Shown piece after piece: positions 4,243 through 59,911 of a DNA stretch of 64,000 nt. Both the position numbers and the translations under genes were made by a program. Within the stretch, counting starts at the first letter, position 1, and the number at the start of each line of letters is the position of its first letter. Origin of the DNA: a gamma proteobacterium HTCC5015 (GTDB lineage Bacteria; Pseudomonadota; Gammaproteobacteria; HTCC5015). The stretch covers positions 7,975-71,974 of the forward strand of contig DS990600.1 of the NCBI GenBank assembly GCA_000155715.1. Direction: 5' to 3'. Below the pieces are notes generated by a model, which was not told the origin of the DNA, did no database searches, and saw only the letters and a program-made list of their open reading frames with translations.

Positions 4243-5331
4243 ATGAACCAGCAATGGGCTATTCGCGCCGCCACTGAGCGCGACAATGACAGCATTTTAG
4301 ACATACTCGAAGCCGCGCCACAAATGGGCGTTGTGCAACTCGCTTTTGAGCGCCGCCCGAGTTACTTCAACGCACTGCTTGTCAGCCATGATGAACCCGA
4401 AGTCTATGTCTATGAAGACTTAGAAAAGCAACGCATTGCCGGCATGTTTAGCTGTGGAAAGCGAGATATGTACATCAACGGGAAAATCACCTCCCTGCGC
4501 TATACCGGCGACCTGCGCATTCACCCTAAATATCAAGGCACGCGGGTACTCTTTCGCATGGCCAAAGTACTCAAAAACCTCAGCGGGGAACAAGAGTGGA
4601 TGCACACTGTAATTTTGAGTGACAACGCCAAATCGATGCACGCTGTTAGTACAGGGCGGGGCGGCCTACCGGACTACTACCACCAAGCCAGCTTTGTCAC
4701 CCACAGTCTGTTTCTGAAAGCCAAGAAATTACCGTTGTCCGATCAAGTCCGTGGGGCTAAAGAGAGCGATATTCCGGCTATGCAAGCTCTCTACAACGAG
4801 GAACAATCGCGCAAACAATTTGCCCCCCTTCTCGACTTGCAAGCGCTTCACCAAGGCAACGACCCACACTACCGTGGGCTCGCCCTAGACCACTTTATTG
4901 TTCTTGAAGAGGCAGGCGAAATCACCGCCATGATGGGGTTATGGGATCAGGAAAGCTTCAAACAAACTCGCGTCACTGGCTACCACTGGAGCTTCGCCCT
5001 AAGTCGGCACCTTTACAATCTGTGGGCAAAGCTGTTCGGCGGATTTACTATTCCACCCAAAGGTGAAACCCTGCACTACCGCTACGCCTACGCTACTACG
5101 TGCAAAGGCAATAGCGCCAAACGCCTCGGTGCACTGCTCAGTGCCGTTAGCCAGCAATGTAAAGGGGAAGTGCTGACACTGGGGCTTGATAAAAAAGACC
5201 CTCTCAACCAAGCCACCAAACACTGGCGAAAACATACCCTAGGCAGCGAGCACTTCGTCACCAGTTATCAAGGTGATCCACGTGAACAGCTAGACGAATG
5301 CTTGGTACACCCAGAAATTGCACGCCTATAA
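4243..5331 (+). CDS. GNAT-family acetyltransferase-like protein
   Basis: 362-residue protein whose N-terminal 170 residues look like a GNAT domain (WAIRAATERDNDSILDIL at the start and SLRYTGDLRIHPKYQGTRV resembling the acyl-CoA-binding strand and loop). A second, more divergent domain follows from about 180 (VRGAKESDIPAMQALYNEE). The ATG at 4243 follows a strong GGAGGAG; an in-frame TTG at 4210 is less likely. The promoter carries a TATACT box and an operator-like dyad (4191-4210) that recurs near the acyltransferase-like gene at 7613-8449, so the two may be co-regulated. The acceptor substrate is unknown. Confidence 0.75.
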   Translation: MNQQWAIRAATERDNDSILDILEAAPQMGVVQLAFERRPSYFNALLVSHDEPEVYVYEDLEKQRIAGMFSCGKRDMYINGKITSLRYTGDLRIHPKYQGTRVLFRMAKVLKNLSGEQEWMHTVILSDNAKSMHAVSTGRGGLPDYYHQASFVTHSLFLKAKKLPLSDQVRGAKESDIPAMQALYNEEQSRKQFAPLLDLQALHQGNDPHYRGLALDHFIVLEEAGEITAMMGLWDQESFKQTRVTGYHWSFALSRHLYNLWAKLFGGFTIPPKGETLHYRYAYATTCKGNSAKRLGALLSAVSQQCKGEVLTLGLDKKDPLNQATKHWRKHTLGSEHFVTSYQGDPREQLDECLVHPEIARL

Positions 5332-5525
5332 ACACTCTGTTTGCCGTCAAGCGTTTTCGGTGACTGCATACAACGTTGTGGCATCTTAAGGCTGGGGGTA
5401 TTTCATGATGGCCCAAGCTGCGGTGAGCATCTTGCGTATGATGGCAACATTAGCTTGCATTTTCTTTTTGCCATTCTCCACCATGCGCTCTTTAAAGACG
5501 TTGGCAAAAGAGTCATGCGAGCCGA

Positions 5526-5700
5526 CTAGGGCCTGTTACCACAAATTTTATGATCTCTGCTGGAAGCCATTTTCCTGCCCAGCAAGGCAGAAGGCGTGCC
5601 GTGTAGTACGTCTACACAAACAACGGATAACGCAGCTGGGCGGAAAATAGCTCCAGCCCTTCGGGTTGTGGCTAAAAAAGCGCCACTCAGCGCTCGTCGT
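5526..5700 (+). mobile_element. MITE-like hairpin repeat, copy 1 (right end missing)
   Basis: Copy of a non-coding element also found at 59924-60194 and 60884-61060. It starts at a CTAG with GGGCCTGTTACCACAAATTT and contains the family core: a self-complementary region centred on GTGTAGTACGTCTACAC flanked by CCTGCCCAGC and GCTGGGCGG arms. Similarity to the copy at 59924 continues to about 5700, then is lost before the right terminal inverted repeat, so this copy is truncated or rearranged. No transposase gene is present. Confidence 0.75.
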
Positions 5701-5858
5701 AGGTATTTATAACCACGTCGCGAGCCGCAGGCGCAGCCATCTGCTTATCGGATTTATGGGCAGATTGTCGCGTCGGCTGTACCTCCCCAAAATGCCTGTC
5801 ATTCCTCCAAACCCCAAATCTTCGAAATATTCGTCACTCCTCTATTCTCTGAAAAAAC
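5701..5858. other. non-coding stretch between repeat copies
   Basis: Contains the remains of another palindromic intergenic repeat (CGCGAGCCGCAGGCGCAGCC, later GATTGTCGCGTCGGCTG), related in style to the element at 38103-38236. The short open frames here have no credible start or family and are not called as genes. Confidence 0.4.
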
Positions 5859-5946
5859 CGTCATTCCCGCGCAGGCGGGAATCCAGCGTCGTTGAATGCG
5901 TGAGTTAGTAAAGCCACTGGGCTCCCGCCTGCGCGGGAGCGACGGC
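5859..5946. repeat. REP-like inverted pair (GCGCAGGCGGGA type)
   Basis: Two outward hairpins: CATTCCCGCGCAGGCGGGAA at 5861-5880 and GCTCCCGCCTGCGCGGGAGC at 5921-5940, 40 bp apart. The same pair, reversed in order, lies at 12969-13056. Located just after the stop of the GH3 gene, where it could end transcription or stabilise the mRNA. Confidence 0.75.
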
Positions 5947-5981
5947 GAGGAAACTCGCCTTTGGGTAGCCGAAAAAAGGGC

Positions 5982-7616
5982 TTAAGCTGAGCGCCGCGCC
6001 TGAGCGACATCGTCCTCTTTGAGCGGCGCCACGACTTCTTCGACACGCTTTAACGGCTCTACTTTGATATCGCCTTCAATCATACCGCGGGCAAGGCAAA
6101 TTTTGGTGTAGCGCGCTCGCGCGCCATCGCCGATCAAACAGCGCGGCGGGTCGAGTTGACCTAGGTTGCGCGCCAATTCGTAGTGGAAGTTTTCGCTCAA
6201 TAATTTGTCGAGCAAAGCAATACACTCCGACTCAGTCATTTTCGCCTCGCCTTCAGCCAGCAAGGTGTAGTGAGGTCGTGTATCGCCCTCTTTCGACATC
6301 ACCGCCAGCAGTGACACAGGGAAGCTTCCCGAGGCCTCGGCAAACTGATTGAGCGTACTTTGAGCCAGTAACACACTCATTTTTTCGCCCACCATATCAA
6401 CCCCATCGTCGCGGCCTTTAAAGCTCAAACAGGGAATGCCCCCCATGAAGCCATCGACTTCAATGACGTCGTTCATGCGATAGCGCAAAAGTCCGTTGCC
6501 CGCACTGAGAACGGGTTTAACACGCTGGCCTACGTCGAGTGCCCAAGGCGGTAAGACATCGCCTGTGCCCACATCTTCAAACTCGTATACATGGCTCTGA
6601 TAGGCCAGTGGGAAGCGCTCCTGAAAGGGAATCGTCACAACGCCCTCAGTGGCCCACAGTCCCTTGCCTTCGACAGCGACACCCGCCAGCTGCTGGCGCA
6701 GTTCATTGGCCCAATGGGTCGACGAGGCGGTATCCCAAGATGAAACCAATGCCAACTTGGGCCACAACTCGGGCCAAAAGCTGGCGAGGTCTTTTCCGTC
6801 CCAAGCTCGAAGCATTTGTGCCACACGGCGGTTACGGGGCGCGGGCATCGCGCCCATTCCAGCCGCGCGCGAGCCCCAACTACCGCTGGACAACACCTCG
6901 GCAATGTCTTCGCGGCTGTCGCTCAACACTTCTAGCAAACGCAGACCAAAGGTGGGACTCCAGATGGAAATCATCGACAAATCGCCCGCGGAGGCCAAGT
7001 GGGCGACCGTGGCAAAAAAGGAGTCCTCGACGGTTTCCGTCATGGAGACCGACTGCGGTACCGCCTGGGAACTCTTGGCCACCATGCGCTTCACGGGGGA
7101 CAGTAAATTCATATCGTCGTTAATGCCCGCACTGAGCTCTTTTCGACGACCGTCAGGTAACCAAGACAGCGACCAGTAGTGACGACCAGCCGCAATACCG
7201 GGATAGTCGCGGTAAAGTTGATAGATCCAAGGGGCAATGGCCGCATCGAGTTCGCTCAGAAAGCCCTGAGTGTAAGGGATCAGTTTGTATTTAGAGGTCG
7301 AGCCACTCGTGGGTTGATAGCGCATCACCGAATCGCTAATGAGCTTCTCCCGACCATCGCGCTGCCGCTCGACCCCCTCTTTCCAAAAACTGTAGTCGGT
7401 GACGGGTAGCTCTTTGGTATAGGCATCCCACCCCATGTCCGCGTTGACACCGAGTTTCGCCCCACTGTCGGTCACGCTAACGCGCTCGACCAGTGAGGCA
7501 AGTTTTTGACGTTGGATTTGTTCTAGCTGAGCAGCTTGGCGCTGAAAGCGTCCGTGACCGCCCCGCAGTGCCCACCGCATCACCTGGTGGGCAAAAGGGT
7601 TCATCCAGCGGTTCAT
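5982..7616 (-). CDS. GH3-family acyl-adenylate/amidotransferase-like protein
   Basis: 544-residue member of the GH3 superfamily, known in plants for ATP-dependent conjugation of amino acids to auxin and jasmonate; bacterial members are mostly uncharacterised. Visible motifs are the nucleotide-binding loop TSGSTSK (about residues 103-109) and LLRYRMNDVIEVDGF, matching the Y-R-x-x-D motif of adenylating enzymes. I start it at the ATG at 7616, which overlaps the stop of the upstream gene (ATGA); the open frame extends 57 residues further but inside that gene. The coupling says the two proteins work together: adenylation here, acyl transfer by the partner. Substrate unknown. Confidence 0.85.
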   Translation of the reverse strand: MNRWMNPFAHQVMRWALRGGHGRFQRQAAQLEQIQRQKLASLVERVSVTDSGAKLGVNADMGWDAYTKELPVTDYSFWKEGVERQRDGREKLISDSVMRYQPTSGSTSKYKLIPYTQGFLSELDAAIAPWIYQLYRDYPGIAAGRHYWSLSWLPDGRRKELSAGINDDMNLLSPVKRMVAKSSQAVPQSVSMTETVEDSFFATVAHLASAGDLSMISIWSPTFGLRLLEVLSDSREDIAEVLSSGSWGSRAAGMGAMPAPRNRRVAQMLRAWDGKDLASFWPELWPKLALVSSWDTASSTHWANELRQQLAGVAVEGKGLWATEGVVTIPFQERFPLAYQSHVYEFEDVGTGDVLPPWALDVGQRVKPVLSAGNGLLRYRMNDVIEVDGFMGGIPCLSFKGRDDGVDMVGEKMSVLLAQSTLNQFAEASGSFPVSLLAVMSKEGDTRPHYTLLAEGEAKMTESECIALLDKLLSENFHYELARNLGQLDPPRCLIGDGARARYTKICLARGMIEGDIKVEPLKRVEEVVAPLKEDDVAQARRSA

Positions 7617-8449
7617 GAAACCTGCTGAGACACTTCTGTATCGGGAGCGCTCGCTCGATTTTGATCCCGCGCCACCACAGCACGCGGCTTCAAGCCAATC
7701 AGCTTGCGGAATAGCACACCCACATATTTTATAACTGACATGTAGCCAATATCGCCCACACAGGGCAGCTCTGTGCCCCGGCGCCACGTGGGATTAACCG
7801 TTTCAAAAAAATCGATTTTAGGCTGTTTAGCTCGCAGCTCTTGAGTGATATCAGCTACACCACTTTTTACATTTTGATAATCACTGCCAAAATCTAGCAA
7901 TTGCGTCTCGCTGTTATAGCACCCCGGAAACAATTGTTCAGAGTAGCTCGCTGCCACATTGCAGTAGCGCTTTTCTTGTTTTTCACTCAGTGAGCGAGCG
8001 GGATAGTAAGCGCCCTCTGGGAAGTTGTTGGCCATCAGCAAATACGTTTTGTAGCCCTTGGAAATCAACAGCCAAAACAGAGGAGTCAATGGGTTGGCCA
8101 AGCGCTGCTTAATCACATAAATAAAGAAATGCACCTGCAGCGCAGTAGAGCCCCAATACTCTTTTTCGAGCACCGTGTCACCACTAAAGATACCGATGGC
8201 GTTGCGGCCATTATCATCGATTTGACAGGTTTTTACCGTAGAGAATCCAACGATTTTGTCGTCTGAGCGGCGGCGCATCATGATGGCCCCAGTTTTTTCA
8301 CTCAGATCTTTAATAAATGTTTGTAGATCGGCGCCATCGTAGTAGCGCTCAAACACTTCGAACATCTGGGAAATATCTTTTACGCTGATTTTTTTAACCG
8401 GCTGAAAATGCGCACGAATCGCTTTTTTATTAGTTGACGACTGTTTCAT
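7613..8449 (-). CDS. GNAT-fold acyltransferase-like protein coupled to the GH3 gene
   Basis: 278-residue protein of unknown function. The middle (GAIMMRRRSDDKIVGFSTVK, then LEKEYWGSTALQVHFFIYVIKQ) looks like a GNAT-type acyltransferase fold, but I see no diagnostic catalytic motif and the assignment is tentative. The ATG at 8449 has a GGGGG eight bases upstream; the GTG at 8458 lies over that site. It is the first gene of a two-gene operon and ends in a 4-bp overlap with the GH3 gene. An operator-like dyad at 8562-8581 matches one upstream of the GNAT gene at 4243. Confidence 0.6.
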   Translation of the reverse strand: MKQSSTNKKAIRAHFQPVKKISVKDISQMFEVFERYYDGADLQTFIKDLSEKTGAIMMRRRSDDKIVGFSTVKTCQIDDNGRNAIGIFSGDTVLEKEYWGSTALQVHFFIYVIKQRLANPLTPLFWLLISKGYKTYLLMANNFPEGAYYPARSLSEKQEKRYCNVAASYSEQLFPGCYNSETQLLDFGSDYQNVKSGVADITQELRAKQPKIDFFETVNPTWRRGTELPCVGDIGYMSVIKYVGVLFRKLIGLKPRAVVARDQNRASAPDTEVSQQVS

Positions 8450-8561
8450 TATAATCACCCCCCAGTGATTGTGTAAAAGCAGTAACTTTCATACCCCAAA
8501 CAGGGAATGGATAGTATTACGACCGCTTGTCGGCGAAAAGCGCCCGCTCACACTTTGTCGC

Positions 8562-8581
8562 ATTAAATCAAGTAGTTTAAA
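8562..8581. promoter_or_regulatory. second copy of the ATTAAA-TTTAA operator-like dyad
   Basis: 17 of 20 bases match the dyad at 4191-4210. It lies about 113 bp upstream of the start of the acyltransferase-like gene, between it and the repeat element at 8656. No convincing promoter is evident at the usual spacing, so its role is uncertain. Confidence 0.35.
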
Positions 8582-8655
8582 TAAAGCCTCACATTTTAGT
8601 GGACAGGCGTGCACTATTTGTCGGCTAATACCCCGTTTTTTGCGTGTTTTGTCCC

Positions 8656-8807
8656 CTAGGGCCTGTGCACTCTCATCCTGTATCCCCTGCTGGAGTCATT
8701 TTTTTGTCCAGCAGTTCCAGCCGGTGCGCAGTGTAGTCGCTCTACATCAGTAACGGCTGGGGCTGCTGGGCGGAAAAAGGGCCCAAGGAATGAGTGTGAA
8801 CAGGCCA
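8656..8807 (+). mobile_element. divergent MITE-like hairpin repeat, copy 4
   Basis: Same architecture as the elements at 5526, 59924 and 60884 but diverged in sequence: CTAG then GGGCCTGTGCACTCTCAT at the left, and at the right the complement of GGCCTGTTCACACTCATTCC, with internal GTGTAG-TCGCT-CTACAT and CAGCAG...CTGCTGGGCGGAAAA arms. Non-coding. It sits at the boundary between the inserted block and the ccoH-ccoI-ccoS genes. Confidence 0.65.
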
Positions 8808-8825
8808 TCGTTAAATTAACGGAAA

Positions 8826-8867
8826 GTGACGTAAATCAATCGTTAGTCACGCTTGTATCGCTATACT
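8826..8867 (+). promoter_or_regulatory. FNR/Anr-type box and -10 element upstream of ccoH
   Basis: GTGAC-GTAA-ATCAA at 8826-8839 matches 8 of 10 defined positions of the FNR/Anr consensus TTGAT-N4-ATCAA. TATACT at 8862-8867 is a good -10 box. A start of transcription 7 bases downstream falls on the ATG at 8874, exactly 41.5 bp from the centre of the box, the class II FNR position. Oxygen control of cbb3 assembly genes by FNR-type regulators is well known. Confidence 0.55.
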
Positions 8868-8873
8868 CGAGCC

Positions 8874-9128
8874 ATGAAAAATAGCCCTTACACGACAAAC
8901 ACTCCGTCTGAAACCCGCATAGCAAACAAAGCTTGGTACCAGCAGTTTTGGCCTTGGTTTCTGATTGGCATTCTCAGCAGTGGGATGGTGGGTGGCATCG
9001 TCACCATTGCGATCGCCCAGCAAAACCCGCCCACTTTAATCAGAGAGGACATTGGACGTTTCGGCCAAGTGAACCCTGGTGAGCGGGACTCTACAGCTTC
9101 TGCTCATCCCACCTCATCGCCGCAGTGA
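8874..9128 (+). CDS. ccoH: short FixH/CcoH-like cbb3 oxidase assembly protein
   Basis: 84-residue protein with the FixH signature WYQQFWPWFLIGILSSGMVG near residues 18-37, followed by a membrane span and the post-membrane segment AIAQQNPPTL. Normal FixH proteins are about twice as long; the periplasmic domain is absent and replaced by a short polar tail. It is the first gene of ccoH-ccoI-ccoS and overlaps ccoI by 4 bp. The family helps oxidase assembly, probably with CcoI. No clear Shine-Dalgarno is visible and the predicted mRNA starts at or near the ATG. Confidence 0.75.
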   Translation: MKNSPYTTNTPSETRIANKAWYQQFWPWFLIGILSSGMVGGIVTIAIAQQNPPTLIREDIGRFGQVNPGERDSTASAHPTSSPQ

Positions 9129-24277: not shown

Positions 24278-25099
24278 ATGAGTAAATTGAACCAACGCGT
24301 CGTCGCCATCACGGGTGCAGGGTCTGGTATTGGCCGCGCTCTCGCCGTCGAATCTGCCAAGCGCGGAGCCGATCTCGCCCTCAGCGATGTCAACGAGGCT
24401 GGCCTAAAAGAGACCGCAGCCCAGTGCGAAAAAGCCGGCGCCAAAGTTCATACTCAAATTGTTAATGTCGCCGAGCGCGACGCCGTTGAAGCTTGGTGCG
24501 ACGCCATCGTCAAACACTTTGGCAAAGTGCATGTCATCATCAACAACGCGGGCGTTGCCCTCAACGCCGATGTGGCGCACACCGAGTACGAAGATTTTGA
24601 GTGGTTGATGGGCATCAATTTCTGGGGCGTTGTCTATGGAACAAAAACTTTTCTTCCACAGATCCGCAAGAACGACTGGGGCCACATTGTTAACATTTCC
24701 AGTTTGTTTGGCCTTCTTGGCATTCCCAACCAAAGCGCCTACAACGCCGCCAAATTTGCCGTGCGCGGTTTCACCGAAAGCTTGCAGTGTGAAATGCGCG
24801 TCAGCGGCGAGAACATTGGTGTTAGCTGCGTTCACCCCGGCGGTATTAAAACCAATATTGCCAACGCCGCGCGCTTTAGCCACAGCACCAGCACGCGATC
24901 GCAAGATGCCGACCAGCTCAAGAAAGAGTTCAATGAAAAGCTGGCCCGCACCACACCAGAACAGGCGGCCAACATCATTCTCAAGGGCATAGAAAACAAC
25001 CAAGAGCGTGTACTCGTGGGTATGGATGCTGTCGCCCTAGACCGCATGCAGCGCATGATGCCGACAGGCTATCGCAAGCTCGTCGCCAAGTTTGCCTAA
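24278..25099 (+). CDS. short-chain dehydrogenase/reductase
   Basis: 273-residue classical SDR. NAD(P)-binding TGAGSGIG at 12-19, NNAG at 89-92, and the catalytic triad S141/S142, Y155 and K159 (NQSAYNAAKF). The acidic S-D after the second strand (LALSDVNE) favours NAD(H). It oxidises or reduces an alcohol/carbonyl, probably hydrophobic given the neighbours. AGAGGA lies before the start, 32 bp after the metal hydrolase gene. Its stop overlaps the ATG of the next gene by 1 bp. Confidence 0.9.
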   Translation: MSKLNQRVVAITGAGSGIGRALAVESAKRGADLALSDVNEAGLKETAAQCEKAGAKVHTQIVNVAERDAVEAWCDAIVKHFGKVHVIINNAGVALNADVAHTEYEDFEWLMGINFWGVVYGTKTFLPQIRKNDWGHIVNISSLFGLLGIPNQSAYNAAKFAVRGFTESLQCEMRVSGENIGVSCVHPGGIKTNIANAARFSHSTSTRSQDADQLKKEFNEKLARTTPEQAANIILKGIENNQERVLVGMDAVALDRMQRMMPTGYRKLVAKFA

Positions 25100-54179: not shown

Positions 54180-54263
54180 CTTTCGGCTTGAGCTCCCCCA
54201 TAGAGCGCAACTTTTAGGCACAATAGTGGTCATTATCGACTTAGTCGCAAAAGGATCTTATTG

Positions 54264-55658
54264 ATGCCTCGTTTTGGCCTCAAAGCGCGCCAGCGTCGCG
54301 CCCTTATTAGCCTTGGCCTCGCCAGCCTGCTCACCGCCTGCGCCGGCGTTGAGCCATTGCCGCCCTCACAGGCGGCGATCCCCGGCAGTGAGTCTCTGGC
54401 TTCGTCGCCTCTGGTCACACCCCGTTGGCCCCAGCTCTTCCAAGCGCCCAGCCTCCAGCCGCTGATTCGCGAGGCGCTGGCACACAACCAAGATTTTAAA
54501 GCCGCTCGCTCGCGGCTAGAGGCGGCTTTCGCCAATACCGAGGGCGACAGCCGCTGGCCCACCATCAATGCAGAAGTGAACCGCCAACGCCGCGATAACG
54601 ACGGCATCAAAACGGACTCCGCCAGCGCGGCACTGAGCGTAAACTGGGAGCTCGATGTCTGGGGCCGCCTCGCCGCAGAGAATGCCGTCGCCGCCTACAC
54701 CGCCCAATCTCTAGCGGCGGACACCCAGTGGGCGCAGTACTCTCTCGCCGCCAATGTGGCTAAAGCTTGGCTCACGGCGGTGGCCAACCACGCCCAGTGG
54801 CAACTCAGCCAACAGCGTCAGGCCAGCCTTGAGCAAAGCACGGATATTATCGAGAACGGCTACGAAAACGGCACCCGCGACGCGTTAGAGGTTTACAGTG
54901 CACGCGCCGAACTGGCCAATAGTGCCGCCGCGGAGCTACAGGCCCAACGCGCCTTTGAAAACAGCCGTTACCAACTGAACGTACTGCTTGGCCGCTTTCC
55001 CGGCCAGGCCATCGAGCTGCCCGAGTCGCTGCCCGCACCCGACAACGAGCTGCCCGCCGAGCTCTCATCCAGTTTGCTAGAGCGCCGCCCCGATGTGCGC
55101 GCTGCGCAGTTGACCCTCGCCGCACAAGAGGCCCAGTGGGCGGTGGCCAAGCGCAATCGCTGGCCGCGGTTTGCACTGACCGCACAAGCGGGCAATGCCA
55201 GCGATCGACTGAGCAGCGTCGCCTCGGGCAACGACCCTTTCTGGACGGCGATTGGCAATCTCTCCATGCCCCTCTTTCAGGGCAAAGCTCTGGCGGCGGA
55301 GCAACAGCGGCAAGCGCATCTATACGAGGCCGAGTTGGCCAACTACCGCAGCACTGCACTGACCGCCTTTCAAGAAGCTCTCAATGCCATCGACAACACA
55401 ACTTCTCTGCATCGCCGCTGGCAACTGGCTCAATCCGCCAGCGATTCTGCGCGGCAAGCGGAAGAGCAAGCGCTCGAAAGCTACCTGTCGGGCATCAGCA
55501 ACTTCAACACATGGCTGCAAGCACAACGCAGCGCCTTTGACAGTGCCAGCGCTACCATCACCGCCCAAAGTGCGTGGTTGCAAAACCGAATCGATTTACA
55601 CCTCGCCCTCGGCGGCGACTTTGACCTAACTCAAGAAGAGACTCACGATGCCCCGTAA
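54264..55658 (+). CDS. RND efflux outer-membrane lipoprotein (NodT/OprM type)
   Basis: 464-residue outer-membrane factor. Lipobox L-L-T-A-C near residue 23. Two OEP repeats with long coiled-coil helices (about 60-250 and 270-455) and the family blocks SVNWELDVWGRLA, ALEVYSARAELANSAA and LLERRPDVRAAQLTL. It forms the exit duct of the tripartite pump with the two following genes. ATG at 54264 after AGGA. Its last 11 bp overlap the adaptor gene. Confidence 0.9.
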   Translation: MPRFGLKARQRRALISLGLASLLTACAGVEPLPPSQAAIPGSESLASSPLVTPRWPQLFQAPSLQPLIREALAHNQDFKAARSRLEAAFANTEGDSRWPTINAEVNRQRRDNDGIKTDSASAALSVNWELDVWGRLAAENAVAAYTAQSLAADTQWAQYSLAANVAKAWLTAVANHAQWQLSQQRQASLEQSTDIIENGYENGTRDALEVYSARAELANSAAAELQAQRAFENSRYQLNVLLGRFPGQAIELPESLPAPDNELPAELSSSLLERRPDVRAAQLTLAAQEAQWAVAKRNRWPRFALTAQAGNASDRLSSVASGNDPFWTAIGNLSMPLFQGKALAAEQQRQAHLYEAELANYRSTALTAFQEALNAIDNTTSLHRRWQLAQSASDSARQAEEQALESYLSGISNFNTWLQAQRSAFDSASATITAQSAWLQNRIDLHLALGGDFDLTQEETHDAP

Positions 55659-56786
55659 GTTACTACTCCCCCTCGCTATTGTGGTGGCCTGTGTCGTCAT
55701 TGTTATTGGGCTTTACAGCAGCCGCCCCGACGCTCAAAAGCGCAGCAGCGTGCCCGAGCCCGTTGTACAGGTGGACACTCAAACCATTGCACTGACGGAC
55801 GAAACCGTATGGCTCCCCAGCCGCGGCTTAATGACGGCTTTTCAATCGTCGACGCTATCGGCACAAGTCAGCGGTGAAGTCATCGAGGTCACTGACGCCG
55901 CTCGCGCTCAAGGCCAGTTTCAACGCGGCGACAGCTTGATTAAAATTGACGACCGCGACTACCGCGCCGCCCTAGAGCTCGCCGAGGCCAATGTGCAAGA
56001 AGCCCAAGTCGCCTTGCAACAGGAACAGGCGCAGGCGAACAGGCTGAGCGGGACTGGCAGCGTCTTAACAAGGACACCGCGCCGTCGGATCTCGTGCTGA
56101 GAAAGCCCCAGCTCGCCGCCGCTCAGGCACAGCTGCGCGCCGCCAAAGCCCAGCGCGATCAAGCCAAGCTCGATCTCAGTCGCACGCATGTGCGAGCCCC
56201 CTACAGCGGCGCCAGTACCGCTCTCCACGTCAATGTGGGCCAATTCGTCACGACGGGCACCGCACTGGCCGATTTGGCGGGTTTATCTCCCCTCGAGGTC
56301 AGCCTGCCCATCAGCGCCCAGTGGCGAGATTTACTGGCCGATCCCGTTATTGGCAGCGAGGTGCGCTTGACCACGGAAAGCGGCGAACTCGTTGATGCCC
56401 AAATTGTGCGCAGCGCGCCCGTTATCGATCAGAGCAGTCGGCAAATTCATTTAATTGCCCGCGTCGACAGCCAATCCGCCGCCCTCGCCAGCGGCGACTT
56501 TGTCACCGCAGACATTCGCGGAAAAATCCTGAGCGATGTCGTCAAACTGCCCCGCGAAGCTATGGTCGAGGGCAGCGCCGTGTGGCGCATCGAAAACGAG
56601 CGATTAAACAAAACGCCCGTGGACGTTGCCTGGCAGGGTCAAGAGTACGTGCTGGTTCGCTCGGGTCTGGCCGAGGGCGATGTGGTCAACATCACACCGC
56701 TGGCACAAGTCACCAGTGGCACCAAAGTCTCGAATATAGACGACTCCGCCGAAAACAACGCCGAGCCCGTTGAGAGCACACCATGA
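55648..56786 (+). pseudogene. RND efflux periplasmic adaptor (MFP), disrupted by a one-base frameshift
   Basis: Membrane fusion protein of the RND pump, split over two frames. Frame one (55648-56100) has the N-terminal anchor (about 4-24) and the first lipoyl/barrel half (TLSAQVSGEVIEV, GDSLIKIDDRDYRAALE). The second frame (to 56786) has the rest (THVRAPYSGAS, LSPLEVSLPISAQWRDLLA). At about 56037 the sequence GCGCAGGCGAACAGG reads as if one G were missing from GCG-GAA; restoring it gives a continuous coiled-coil hairpin (AEQAERDWQRLNKD). About 380 residues if intact. Either a real inactivating mutation or a sequencing error; its neighbours are intact. Confidence 0.85.
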
Positions 56787-59700
56787 TCGCTTGGTTTACA
56801 CGCAACCATGTCGCCGCTAACTTGATGTTGGTGACCATCGTCTTCGCCGGCTTGATTAGCCTGACGACCAAACTGCCGTTAGAAATTTTCCCCGAGATCG
56901 AGGTCAACGTCATTACCATCTCGGTGACACAGCGAGCCGCCGCACCCGAAGACATGGAACAGGGTGTCGCCAGCCGCATCGAAGATGCCATTGCCGATTT
57001 ACCCGACATCGAGAAGCTCTCTTCTCGGTCCGCCGAACAAGTGGCCACCATTACCGTAGAACTGGTTAACGGCGCCGACCCGCAAGAGGTACTGAACGAG
57101 GTCAAGTCCCGCGTGGATGCCCTATCGACTTTGCCCAGCGATGCCGAACGACCTCAGATTGAGCTAGCGCTGAGAAAACGCGAGGTTCTCAACTTAATTG
57201 TTTCAGGGGACTTAGATGAAAAAGAACTCAGCCAGGTCGCCCGACGCATCCGAGATGAAGTCGTCCTGCGACCCGGCGTCACACAGAGCGATATTGAAGG
57301 TATTCGCCCCTACGAGATCACTCTGTCTGTCTCGGAAAACACGCTGCGCAAATATCGTTTAACGCAGGATGACATCGGGCAAGCCATTCAAAGCGAGGCC
57401 ATCGACTTATCGGCGGGGCAACTGCGCAGTGACAGCGGTGAAATCCGCGTGCGAGCCAAGTCTCAAGCCTACGATTACGACGATTTTAAAAACATCGTCA
57501 TTAAGCGCTTTAGCGACGGCTCTACGCTGTACCTCGACGACTTGGCCAGCATTAACGACGGCTTTGAAGAGGACCCCATCTTTACCCGCTACAACGGCCA
57601 ACGCGCCGCCGTTGTCAATGTCTATCGCGTCGGCCAAGAGAGCGTTATCGACATTTCCCAAGAAGTGCGCCGCTATCTTGATGAGTTGCGCCCGCGGTTG
57701 CCCCCCACCGTCGAAGTCTCGATTTGGGATGACGATTCACGCATTGTCAAAGCGCGTTTAAGCACCCTGCTGAACAGCGCTTGGCAGGGCGCCATCATGG
57801 TGATGATTCTGCTCAGCTTATTCCTCAGGCCCACCATTGCCCTGTGGGTGGTCGTAGGCATTCCCGTCAGTTTTATGGGCGCCTTGGCTGTGATGCCTCA
57901 GCTCGACATCACCATCAATATTTTAAGCTTGTTCGCCTTTATTCTGGTGCTGGGCATCGTCGTCGACGATGCCATCGTCACCGCTGAAAATGTATTTACT
58001 TACTATCGAAAAAACCCTAATGCCAGTGGCCTCGAAGCGGCCATCGAAGGCACTAAAGAAGTGGCTGTCCCCGTTACCTTTGGGATACTGACCACTGTTT
58101 GCGCCTTTTTACCCTTCACGATGATGAGCGGCAACATGGCGACCATTTACCAACAAATCGCCTTTGTCGTCGTCCCTGTTTTGCTGTTCTCCCTCGTCGA
58201 GAGCAAATTTATTCTCCCCGCTCATTTAAAGCATTTAAAACGCCCCAGCGAGGACAAAGACAATGCACTCAATCGCTTTCAGCACCGTATCTCCACGGGG
58301 CTAGAGCACTTTGTCGAACGCTATTACCAACCGTTTTTATCGCGCTGTCTTGAGCGGCGCTATACGACCATTCTTGGCTTTATCGCCCTGTTCGTCATCG
58401 CCTACTCGCTGCTCGGTTCTGGCTGGACGCGCTTTGTCTTTTTCCCCAATGTTCCCAGCGAAAGCGCGACGGCCGAACTCACCATGCAAACGGGCACACC
58501 GATTGAAGTGACAGAGGCGGCGATTGAGCGCATTGAACAAGCCGCACAGGACATGCGCGAAAAATATTTAGAAGAGGATGGCACCAGCGCCGTTCGCAAT
58601 ATTTTATCGACGATTGGCGCCACGGGAGGGGGCGGCTCAGGTAGCAGTAACAAAGGTCGCGTGCGCTTTGAAATTACGCCACCAGAAGAGCGTAACATCG
58701 ACATTTCACCGACCGAGCTCGTCAATGAGTGGCGCCGCTCGATTGGCCCGATTGCCGGTGTGGAAACACTCGATTTTGACGCACAGATTGGCCGCAGCGG
58801 CGACCCCATTGATGTGCAAATCACAGGCAATGACTACCGAGCACTCGAAGAAGTCGTCACCGCCGTACGCGACAAATTGGCCACGTTTTCCGGTGTGTTC
58901 GAAATTGCTGACAGCTTGTCCGACGGCAAACTCGAGTTAATTATCGAGCTAAAACCCCAAGCGCAAATGGTGGGGCTAACGCTTCAGCGTGTCACCCAAC
59001 AAGTGCGCCAAGCGCTGGATGGCTACCAAGCACAGCGCATACAGCGAGGTCAGGACGATGTGCGCGTGATGGTGCGCTATCCCAAAGCGGATCGCAGCTC
59101 CATCGACCAACTCGATGAAATGCGTTTGACCACACCCAGTGGCGACTCGGTGCGCTTTGCCGATGTGGCCAGCTACCACTACACCCGCGGCCCATCGGCC
59201 ATTTACCATGTCGACCGCCGCCGCGCCGTCAACATTACCGCCGATATCGACAAGAGCACCGTCAACGCCACATCGCTGAATCGCGAGCTGACCGAGTGGC
59301 TCAGTGACTATCTGAGCGCCTATCCGGGCATCAGCTTTAGCTTGGAAGGCGAAGCGCGGGAGCAAAAGGATTCACAGCGCGACCTTACGGTGAGCGGGCT
59401 GTTGGTACTATTTGCGATCTACGCCCTGCTCGCCATTCCCTTTAAGTCCTACGGGCAGCCTTTCATTGTGATGTCTATCATCCCCTTTGCCTTCATCGGT
59501 GCCCTAGCGGGGCATTGGGTTATGGGACATAGCGTTTCTATGATGAGCATTATGGGCATGATGGCGCTGATTGGCATCGTGGTGAACGACTCACTCGTAC
59601 TGGTCGACTACATCAACCAAAAGGTGCGCAGTGGCCTGTCGCTGTTCGACGCGGTTTACCACGCGGGGGGCGCGCGTTTCCGCGCCGTTTTACTCACCTC

Positions 59701-59911
59701 GCTCACCACCTTTGTGGGGCTCGTACCACTGCTGTTTGAAAAGAGTACGCAAGCCCAGTTTTTGATTCCCATGGCCATTTCACTGGGCTTTGGCATTCTC
59801 TTTGCGACCTTTGTGACGTTGATTTTGGTGCCCTGCCACTACTTGGTACTGGAGGACATTCAACGCGGCATCAAGCAACTGTTGTCGAAACTTTCATTAA
59901 ACGCTTCTTAG
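56783..59911 (+). CDS. RND efflux permease (AcrB family)
   Basis: 1042-residue proton-driven inner-membrane pump. Twelve spans; the first opens at WFTRNHVAANLMLVTIVFAG, the TM4 proton-relay Asp pair is in GIVVDDAIVTAENVF, and the second-half GIVVNDSLVLVDYIN matches the TM10 region. Two large periplasmic loops (about 35-330 and 560-860) form the pore and docking domains. Substrate range unknown. The ATG overlaps the adaptor stop by 4 bp. If the adaptor frameshift is real this pump is probably non-functional, unless another adaptor substitutes. Confidence 0.93.
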   Translation: MIAWFTRNHVAANLMLVTIVFAGLISLTTKLPLEIFPEIEVNVITISVTQRAAAPEDMEQGVASRIEDAIADLPDIEKLSSRSAEQVATITVELVNGADPQEVLNEVKSRVDALSTLPSDAERPQIELALRKREVLNLIVSGDLDEKELSQVARRIRDEVVLRPGVTQSDIEGIRPYEITLSVSENTLRKYRLTQDDIGQAIQSEAIDLSAGQLRSDSGEIRVRAKSQAYDYDDFKNIVIKRFSDGSTLYLDDLASINDGFEEDPIFTRYNGQRAAVVNVYRVGQESVIDISQEVRRYLDELRPRLPPTVEVSIWDDDSRIVKARLSTLLNSAWQGAIMVMILLSLFLRPTIALWVVVGIPVSFMGALAVMPQLDITINILSLFAFILVLGIVVDDAIVTAENVFTYYRKNPNASGLEAAIEGTKEVAVPVTFGILTTVCAFLPFTMMSGNMATIYQQIAFVVVPVLLFSLVESKFILPAHLKHLKRPSEDKDNALNRFQHRISTGLEHFVERYYQPFLSRCLERRYTTILGFIALFVIAYSLLGSGWTRFVFFPNVPSESATAELTMQTGTPIEVTEAAIERIEQAAQDMREKYLEEDGTSAVRNILSTIGATGGGGSGSSNKGRVRFEITPPEERNIDISPTELVNEWRRSIGPIAGVETLDFDAQIGRSGDPIDVQITGNDYRALEEVVTAVRDKLATFSGVFEIADSLSDGKLELIIELKPQAQMVGLTLQRVTQQVRQALDGYQAQRIQRGQDDVRVMVRYPKADRSSIDQLDEMRLTTPSGDSVRFADVASYHYTRGPSAIYHVDRRRAVNITADIDKSTVNATSLNRELTEWLSDYLSAYPGISFSLEGEAREQKDSQRDLTVSGLLVLFAIYALLAIPFKSYGQPFIVMSIIPFAFIGALAGHWVMGHSVSMMSIMGMMALIGIVVNDSLVLVDYINQKVRSGLSLFDAVYHAGGARFRAVLLTSLTTFVGLVPLLFEKSTQAQFLIPMAISLGFGILFATFVTLILVPCHYLVLEDIQRGIKQLLSKLSLNAS

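Follow-up and report, generated by a model that had tools for sequence, protein, structure and literature searches.

A GH3-family gene linked to two GNAT-fold genes across bacterial phyla: a candidate pathway for an exported acyl amide

Results

A GH3 homologue and a GNAT-fold partner are encoded by overlapping genes in HTCC5015

We analyzed a 64,000-nucleotide stretch (the window) from the gamma proteobacterium HTCC5015 (assembly GCA_000155715.1, contig DS990600.1, positions 7,975 to 71,974, forward strand), in which a homologue of the GH3 acyl-acid amido synthetases is encoded directly downstream of a partner, PAR, that has a predicted GNAT fold. Both genes are on the reverse strand. The GH3 gene (5982–7616) has its ATG at 7616 and its stop codon ends at 5982, giving a protein of 544 amino acids. 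PAR (7613–8449) has 278 amino acids when read from the ATG at 8449; the mechanically assigned open reading frame begins at a GTG at 8458 (281 amino acids), but by eye the ATG, preceded by the purine-rich GGGGGGTGAT, is the likelier start. The 4-bp overlap of the two genes that the original prediction described is present in the sequence as an ATGA stop/start junction (7613–7616, reverse strand), and it is likely, judging from this arrangement, that translation of PAR and GH3 is coupled. A similar in-frame overlap (ATGA, GTGA or TTGA) is possible in 38 of 50 pairs where PAR directly precedes GH3, namely the window pair and 49 from the 80 named loci described below; 29 of the 38 are from Acinetobacter and nine, including that of the window, are from elsewhere. 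Because the overlap recurs in this way, it appears to be more than chance.

The GH3 protein matched the N-terminal, central and C-terminal GH3 domains of Pfam (PF03321, E 4.6e-33; PF23571, E 1.5e-11; PF23572, E 2e-07) with scores of 115.2, 44.7 and 32.2 bits, each above the cut-off of 23.6. By-eye comparison with the motifs given in a study of the bacterial enzyme OlsH (PMC12493201) located all three nucleotide-binding motifs: TSGSTSKYK (residues 103–111), ATEG (322–325) and GLLRYRMND (375–383). Residues T103, G105, K111, T323, E324, G375, R378, Y379 and D383 were invariant in 20 of 20 aligned GH3 homologues, and the family profile matched plant GH3 structures, with an E value of 1.5e-33 to GH3.15. 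The identification of this protein as a bacterial GH3 homologue with adenylation motifs is therefore upheld, and it is a full-length member of the family.

The closest known enzyme to the window GH3 is OlsH, the N-acyl-ornithine synthetase of a planctomycete. This bacterial GH3, the only one whose chemistry we found described, is reported to make N-acyl-ornithine from a fatty acid, ornithine and ATP, and its S115A variant is inactive (PMC12493201). The counterpart of S115 in the window protein, S104, is almost invariant among the aligned GH3s. Because OlsH makes N-acyl-ornithine, amide formation is likely, by analogy, to be the chemistry of the window GH3 as well. The earlier view that the products of bacterial GH3 enzymes are largely unknown is partly outdated for the same reason.

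PAR has a predicted GNAT fold and no family name

No curated sequence model in the libraries searched identifies PAR as a family member. The window protein had no match in Pfam or NCBIfam (E up to 0.1), and none of 35 family members matched NCBIfam (E up to 0.01). When the 35 were scanned against Pfam, one reached Acetyltransf_1 (E 0.042) and one Acetyltransf_9 (E 0.083), while the best match of any kind was to TLD (two members, E 0.00019). Sequence searches, including a profile search, found no solved relative. On the other hand, an AlphaFold2 model built from 35 sequences (pLDDT 88.8, pTM 0.84) resembled human GCN5 with a Z score of 12.7 and a root-mean-square deviation (rmsd) of 3.0 over 159 aligned residues, and we assign PAR to the GNAT fold on the strength of this model. 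The description of PAR as GNAT-like thus stands for its predicted structure and fails for curated sequence models. The structural matches also included LasI (Z 11.4, rmsd 4.0, 164 aligned), which was tied with many ordinary acetyltransferases, and a fold search of BFVD returned acetyltransferases, viral N-myristoyltransferases (NMTs) and unnamed proteins. The invariant Y139 sits in the helix following strand 127–133 of the model, a position from which the general acid comes in many GNATs. Elsewhere in the genome the PAR profile gave a second, weak match of 24–26 bits.

PAR and GH3 co-occur across genera, classes and phyla

Of 370 genomes surveyed in the class, 21 encode GH3 and 8 encode PAR, and GH3 is present in every one of the 8. 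The hypergeometric probability of this overlap is 2.5e-11, or 1.6e-7 once the window genome and two other genomes used in building the profile are excluded; this test takes no account of relatedness, and the 8 PAR genomes belong to 8 genera. PAR directly adjoins GH3 in five of them. In the others GH3 runs off the contig end (G168), lies on the opposite strand at a distance of about 3 kb (G367) or is on a separate contig (G283). In 397 genomes of the phylum survey, PAR was found in 7 and GH3 in 13 (11 above the family cut-off). All six full-length PAR genes had GH3 alongside; the seventh match (G650), which is partial with one internal stop and scores 40 bits, occurred without GH3.

We also scanned named genomes with a single peptide pattern, to which the window PAR is not an exact fit. 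This yielded 277 relatives, and we retained the 80 best (30 from Acinetobacter); the scan favors close relatives and misses some. GH3 was within the examined stretch in 68 of the 80 loci, and in 49 it was the next gene downstream, in the same orientation as PAR (one tally gives 48, the 49th being L094, an Acinetobacter locus with a broken GH3). Most of the 12 loci where no GH3 was seen in the examined stretch were short or had PAR near an end. Carriers of the pair include Acinetobacter, Marinobacter, Pseudomonas, Pleionea, Deltaproteobacteria, relatives of Bdellovibrio, and Acidobacteria. Absence of the pair from other genomes had been named beforehand as the result that would count against the prediction; instead, the two genes were found together in different genera, classes and phyla.

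For a GH3 tree we started with 72 sequences and removed those with fewer than 250 aligned residues, leaving 57, two of them identical; 9 of the 16 GH3s unlinked to PAR were kept, the other seven being too short to place. A single branch with 99/99 support parts the 48 PAR-linked GH3s from the 9 unlinked ones, and none of 500 label shuffles gave as low a value. Pairwise distances of PAR and GH3 were correlated over 51 loci (r 0.72; 0 of 2000 permutations), a value to which whole-genome shared descent could contribute.

Three loci merit separate mention. A Citrobacter portucalensis plasmid typed as mobilizable, IncFIB/IncFII (NZ_CP134684.1, 51417–60075; L006), carries a PAR–GH3–radical-SAM–GNAT cluster. 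The tandem GNAT described in the next section is in two pieces in one genome of Acinetobacter seifertii (L082), and GH3 is in two pieces in one of A. calcoaceticus (L094); in both, the other genes of the set are whole.

A tandem GNAT resembling eukaryotic N-myristoyltransferase is the third member

On the strand opposite to GH3 and 650 bp past its end, the window encodes a 362-residue tandem GNAT (4243–5331, forward strand; PF13527, E 1.1e-06). Homologues were within the examined stretch in 48 of the 80 named loci, and in 46 of the 80 the homologue accompanied a PAR directly before GH3, mostly with no more than one gene in between. The original proposal of a two-enzyme system therefore has to be abandoned, as a third gene belongs to the set.

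The model of this protein (pLDDT 91.8) shows a duplicated GNAT fold, which superposed on eukaryotic NMT with a Z score of 22.4 and an rmsd of 3.7 over 296 residues, at about 12% identity. Among the 50 matches listed by the structural aligner, 49 were NMTs by title and the other was the bacterial protein MAB_4324. The last residue of the model, 362, was also the last aligned in 46 of these 50 matches, and in the human NMT1 rows it paired with residue 496, the C-terminus; the other NMT chains paired with it presumably end there likewise. In an alignment of 58 tandem GNAT sequences (32 from Acinetobacter), 57 end at the same column. The fifth residue from the C-terminus is Glu or Asp in 57 of them, and the final residue is Ile, Leu or Val in 55; for comparison, the C-termini of PAR (91 sequences) fall in 26 columns and those of GH3 (80 sequences) in 27. 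In human NMT1, the C-terminal carboxylate of Gln496 is described as the catalytic base (PMC7048800). No NMT model was among the Pfam families matched by 20 tandem GNAT members (E up to 1). Judging from its modeled structure, the tandem GNAT may work like NMT although it is not classed as a member of that family.

Export pumps and putative lipid-tailoring proteins are often encoded near the set

Exporter genes were present in 45 of the 49 loci where PAR directly precedes GH3, compared to 7 of the 31 other loci. When MMPL proteins, the sole exporter in 2 of the 45 and 6 of the 7, were left out of the count, the figures were 43 of 49 and 1 of 31. Among the 19 neighbor-pair loci outside Acinetobacter, 15 had an exporter gene (two of them MMPL alone). 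All 30 Acinetobacter loci encode an HlyD-type adaptor, an EmrB-type permease and an outer-membrane efflux protein together with PAR, GH3 and the tandem GNAT. In the five loci L075 (Acinetobacter baylyi), L079, L082, L094 and L005 (A. baumannii) the gene order is adaptor, permease, PAR, GH3, outer-membrane protein, tandem GNAT. Outside Acinetobacter, a permease of the resistance-nodulation-division (RND) type is often nearby, with or without an adaptor (Marinobacter, Pleionea and others).

The Acinetobacter pump may already have a name. A. baumannii AmfAB (A1S_1772/1773, ABUW_1949/1950) is reported to have no part in antibiotic non-susceptibility but to play a role under acid stress (PMC10812440). 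ABUW_1948, numbered beside AmfAB, is listed under tryptophan metabolism in a second source (PMC10375965). Because that listing suits an amidase, and L005 has a Pfam amidase upstream of its pump and module, the data suggest that AmfAB may be the exporter of the module. On the other hand, AmfAB operons are described as having no outer-membrane gene, while in L005 GH3 is followed by a gene for an outer-membrane efflux homologue. In the papers found for locus tags near AmfAB and AmfCD, the passages concerned contain nothing on GH3 or PAR.

Larger clusters surround the pair in other lineages and encode B12-binding radical-SAM proteins, Rieske proteins, fatty-acid desaturases and a hydroxylase, SnoaL-like proteins and a short-chain dehydrogenase. 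An acyl-chain product fits because the pair adjoins such desaturases, hydroxylase, Rieske and B12-radical-SAM proteins, and these lipid-tailoring neighbors point to a long acyl chain that is oxidized or desaturated. Conserved clusters at L044, L047, L049, L160, L161 and many of L102–L131 contain varying mixes of genes, including some for FG-GAP and NQR2 proteins. Two condensation-like neighbors, F15 and F27, had no useful solved relative; F15 had one weak Pfam match, below cut-off, and F27 had none.

Genome setting in HTCC5015

By eye, the genes flanking the module are ccoG on one side and ccoH/ccoI on the other. A genome of the same family (63% complete, L156) has consecutive homologues of ccoP, ccoG and ccoI, uninterrupted by the module, and from this comparison the module was therefore probably gained in the window genome or lost in that of L156. 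Just past the GH3 gene, at 5530–5660, is a dispersed repeat present in the 2.6-Mb genome as 40 full 131-bp copies with 96–100% identity. Its consensus is about 270 bp with inverted ends (AGGGCCTGTTA...TAACAGGCCCT), like those of a miniature inverted-repeat transposable element. Of 14 copies examined with their flanks, among them that of the window, 11 have the inverted piece at the other end; the window copy has none. A diverged copy in the same orientation (72% over 60 bp) lies at about 8600–8790, so the element brackets the GH3–PAR pair. An RNA family search of 5300–9000 gave two microRNA matches, both under their gathering scores.

Elsewhere in the window, an outer-membrane efflux protein, a membrane-fusion protein and an RND permease are encoded at 54261–59911 on the forward strand, about 46 kb from the PAR–GH3 pair. 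This permease is the genome's closest relative of the module-associated RND permeases (569 bits, the next scoring 147), and we regard the set as a candidate exporter of the module, a lead only. The membrane-fusion gene is split (55648–56786) into frames at 55648–56100 and 56094–56786, reflecting a frameshift or a sequencing error. At 24278–25099 the window encodes a short-chain dehydrogenase with 51% identity to one at an Acinetobacter module locus (L088), and an adjacent open reading frame is alpha/beta hydrolase-like by eye.

Comparison with known systems

Like the window locus, the OlsH/OlsI/OlsG operon of Singulisphaera acidiphila is a bacterial GH3 operon with acyl-transfer chemistry (PMC12493201). 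OlsH has the same three nucleotide-binding motif regions as the window GH3; the ATP-dependent amide bond is that of OlsH. Its partners, however, are an alpha/beta-hydrolase O-acyltransferase (OlsI) and an N-methyltransferase and not GNATs, and the operon as described there has three genes and no exporter; the main text of that study mentions neither GNAT nor Acinetobacter (PMC12493201). In the window, no alpha/beta hydrolase or methyltransferase was found among eight nearby proteins scanned, a scan that did not extend to OlsI or OlsG elsewhere in the genome. Plant GH3 enzymes (JAR1, GH3.12 and GH3.15) share the motifs of the window GH3 and match the family profile. To our knowledge, they do not act with GNAT-type partners.

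The tandem GNAT resembles eukaryotic NMT in the superposition over 296 residues, with C-terminus on C-terminus in most rows. Unlike NMT, it is bacterial, set with GH3 and only about 12% identical, and it matches no NMT sequence model. We know of no link to GH3 for the bacterial tandem GNATs Eis, MAB_4324, VipF or the clavulanate-pathway acetyltransferase (a list drawn in part from PMC12219266). These proteins have the same duplicated GNAT fold. With LuxI-type proteins the likeness is a single GNAT fold common to PAR and LasI, and no sequence match was seen. As candidates for anti-phage defense, GH3 and PAR had no PADLOC match and the tandem GNAT had a partial match to HEC-01B (14.1 bits, E 0.0072); we rejected this assignment. 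Literature searches found no description of the module, and the GH3-family reports among the matches listed concerned plants or fungi, apart from the OlsH study and one drug-target study with Acinetobacter.

Discussion

The gene linkage, the predicted folds, the GH3 motifs, the conserved C-terminus of the tandem GNAT and the correlated divergence of PAR and GH3 are observed. Because the three-enzyme set usually lies beside an export pump, it probably builds and exports an acylated small molecule. More specifically, we propose a three-enzyme acyl-conjugation pathway, independent of non-ribosomal peptide synthetases (NRPSs), that makes and exports an acyl amide; we regard the chances for and against this proposal as balanced. 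We infer the catalysis, substrates, order of steps, acyl donors, amine and export in HTCC5015 as follows. GH3 would convert a carboxylic acid to its acyl-AMP at the expense of ATP and would then couple the acid to an amine, which is probably an amino acid. Each of the two GNAT proteins, PAR and the NMT-like one, would transfer an acyl group from CoA or acyl carrier protein (ACP) to an amine, the tandem GNAT with its own C-terminal carboxylate as the base. Together, the ATP-driven ligation and the two acyl transfers would yield a small molecule resembling an acylated amino acid or peptide, with neither a ribosome nor an NRPS involved. The neighboring pump, of the EmrAB-TolC type in Acinetobacter and of the RND type in Marinobacter, Pleionea and others, would export it. 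GNAT-fold enzymes usually use acyl-CoA or acyl-ACP and not acyl-AMP; a direct transfer of acyl-AMP from GH3 to a GNAT partner is therefore no more than a possibility.

Several observations weigh against this proposal. The acyl-CoA-binding loop of GNATs follows the pattern Q/R-x-x-G-x-G/A, and by eye PAR retains only part of it, with W102-G103 well conserved. At least two amply flanked loci (L103 and L116) have PAR with no GH3 within about 10 kb. A common fold does not establish function, and MAB_4324 fits the tandem GNAT model almost as well as NMT does (Z 21.1, rmsd 3.4, 288 aligned), although that alignment ends at residue 342, before the C-terminus. When the tandem GNAT profile was searched against the Protein Data Bank it found no NMT and only weak acetyltransferase matches (best E 0.05). 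As for export, the window module has no pump gene next to it, and the count of 45 in 49 loci was made without a random-locus control, pumps being common genes and 30 of the 49 loci coming from Acinetobacter. Searches of the genome with a condensation-like neighbor and with the EmrB-type permease were empty, which is weak evidence as an empty answer shows little.

The association with pumps could also be explained by conjugate-and-export detoxification, where GH3 would attach amino acids to toxic free acids of the aromatic, bile or fatty type, as the plant enzymes do with auxin, the GNATs would cap related amines and the pump would clear the conjugates. Plant GH3 enzymes are described as conjugating hormones and herbicides (PMC12493201), the Acinetobacter module follows an EmrAB-like pump, and AmfAB, possibly that pump, matters in acid stress and not in antibiotic non-susceptibility. 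However, two acyltransferases and the many lipid-tailoring proteins of other lineages argue for synthesis and not clearance, and the identity of the pump with AmfAB is only suggested and sits poorly with the outer-membrane gene of L005; we consider this explanation unlikely. A second alternative is the synthesis of a membrane amino lipid resembling ornithine lipid. GH3 would N-acylate an amino acid and a GNAT would add acyl groups, while the lipid would stay in the envelope and the pumps would be unrelated or act as flippases. OlsH is itself a GH3 and is reported to make a lyso-ornithine lipid (PMC12493201), and Bdellovibrio-like loci have a fatty-acid hydroxylase near GH3, with weak similarity to OlsE (51.7 bits, cut-off 475). 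On the other hand, the scan of eight nearby window proteins, which left the rest of the genome unsearched for OlsI, found no alpha/beta hydrolase, and exporter genes accompany nearly all of the neighbor pairs, so that this possibility is quite improbable.

We think it very improbable that PAR is a signal synthase like LuxI or FeeM (an N-acyl synthase grouped with LuxI), with GH3 maturing or inactivating an acyl signal. This would agree with the LasI match and with a LuxR-type (GerE) regulator upstream in A. baumannii L005, but LasI was tied with many ordinary acetyltransferases and PAR had no useful curated-family match. Least credible of all, and hardly to be entertained, is that the genes are neighbors by accident or shared mobility, without a common pathway. 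The module does look inserted between ccoG and ccoH/ccoI, the row in L156 is without it and dispersed-repeat copies stand on both sides of the GH3–PAR pair. Nevertheless, co-occurrence, gene order, the one-branch split of the GH3 tree and matching distances across phyla all speak against accident.

If the acyl-conjugation proposal is extended beyond the window, and here we have more doubt than assurance, the set would represent a widespread, undescribed NRPS-free pathway present in many Acinetobacter. A GH3 ligase, an unnamed GNAT and a bacterial counterpart of NMT with the same C-terminal-carboxylate chemistry would make an acylated amino-acid or peptide-like metabolite secreted by dedicated pumps; elsewhere the core would be elaborated by B12-radical-SAM, Rieske and desaturase proteins into a heavily modified lipid amide.

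For the bacterial GH3s, few of which have a known function, these data define partners and frame a biochemical hypothesis that can be tested. PAR is a GNAT-fold family with no name in Pfam or NCBIfam, and the tandem GNAT suggests that NMT-like chemistry may occur in bacterial small-molecule synthesis. As A. baylyi, a species used in the laboratory, carries the module, the product can be sought directly; and if the pump is indeed AmfAB, the module would supply a candidate cargo for it.

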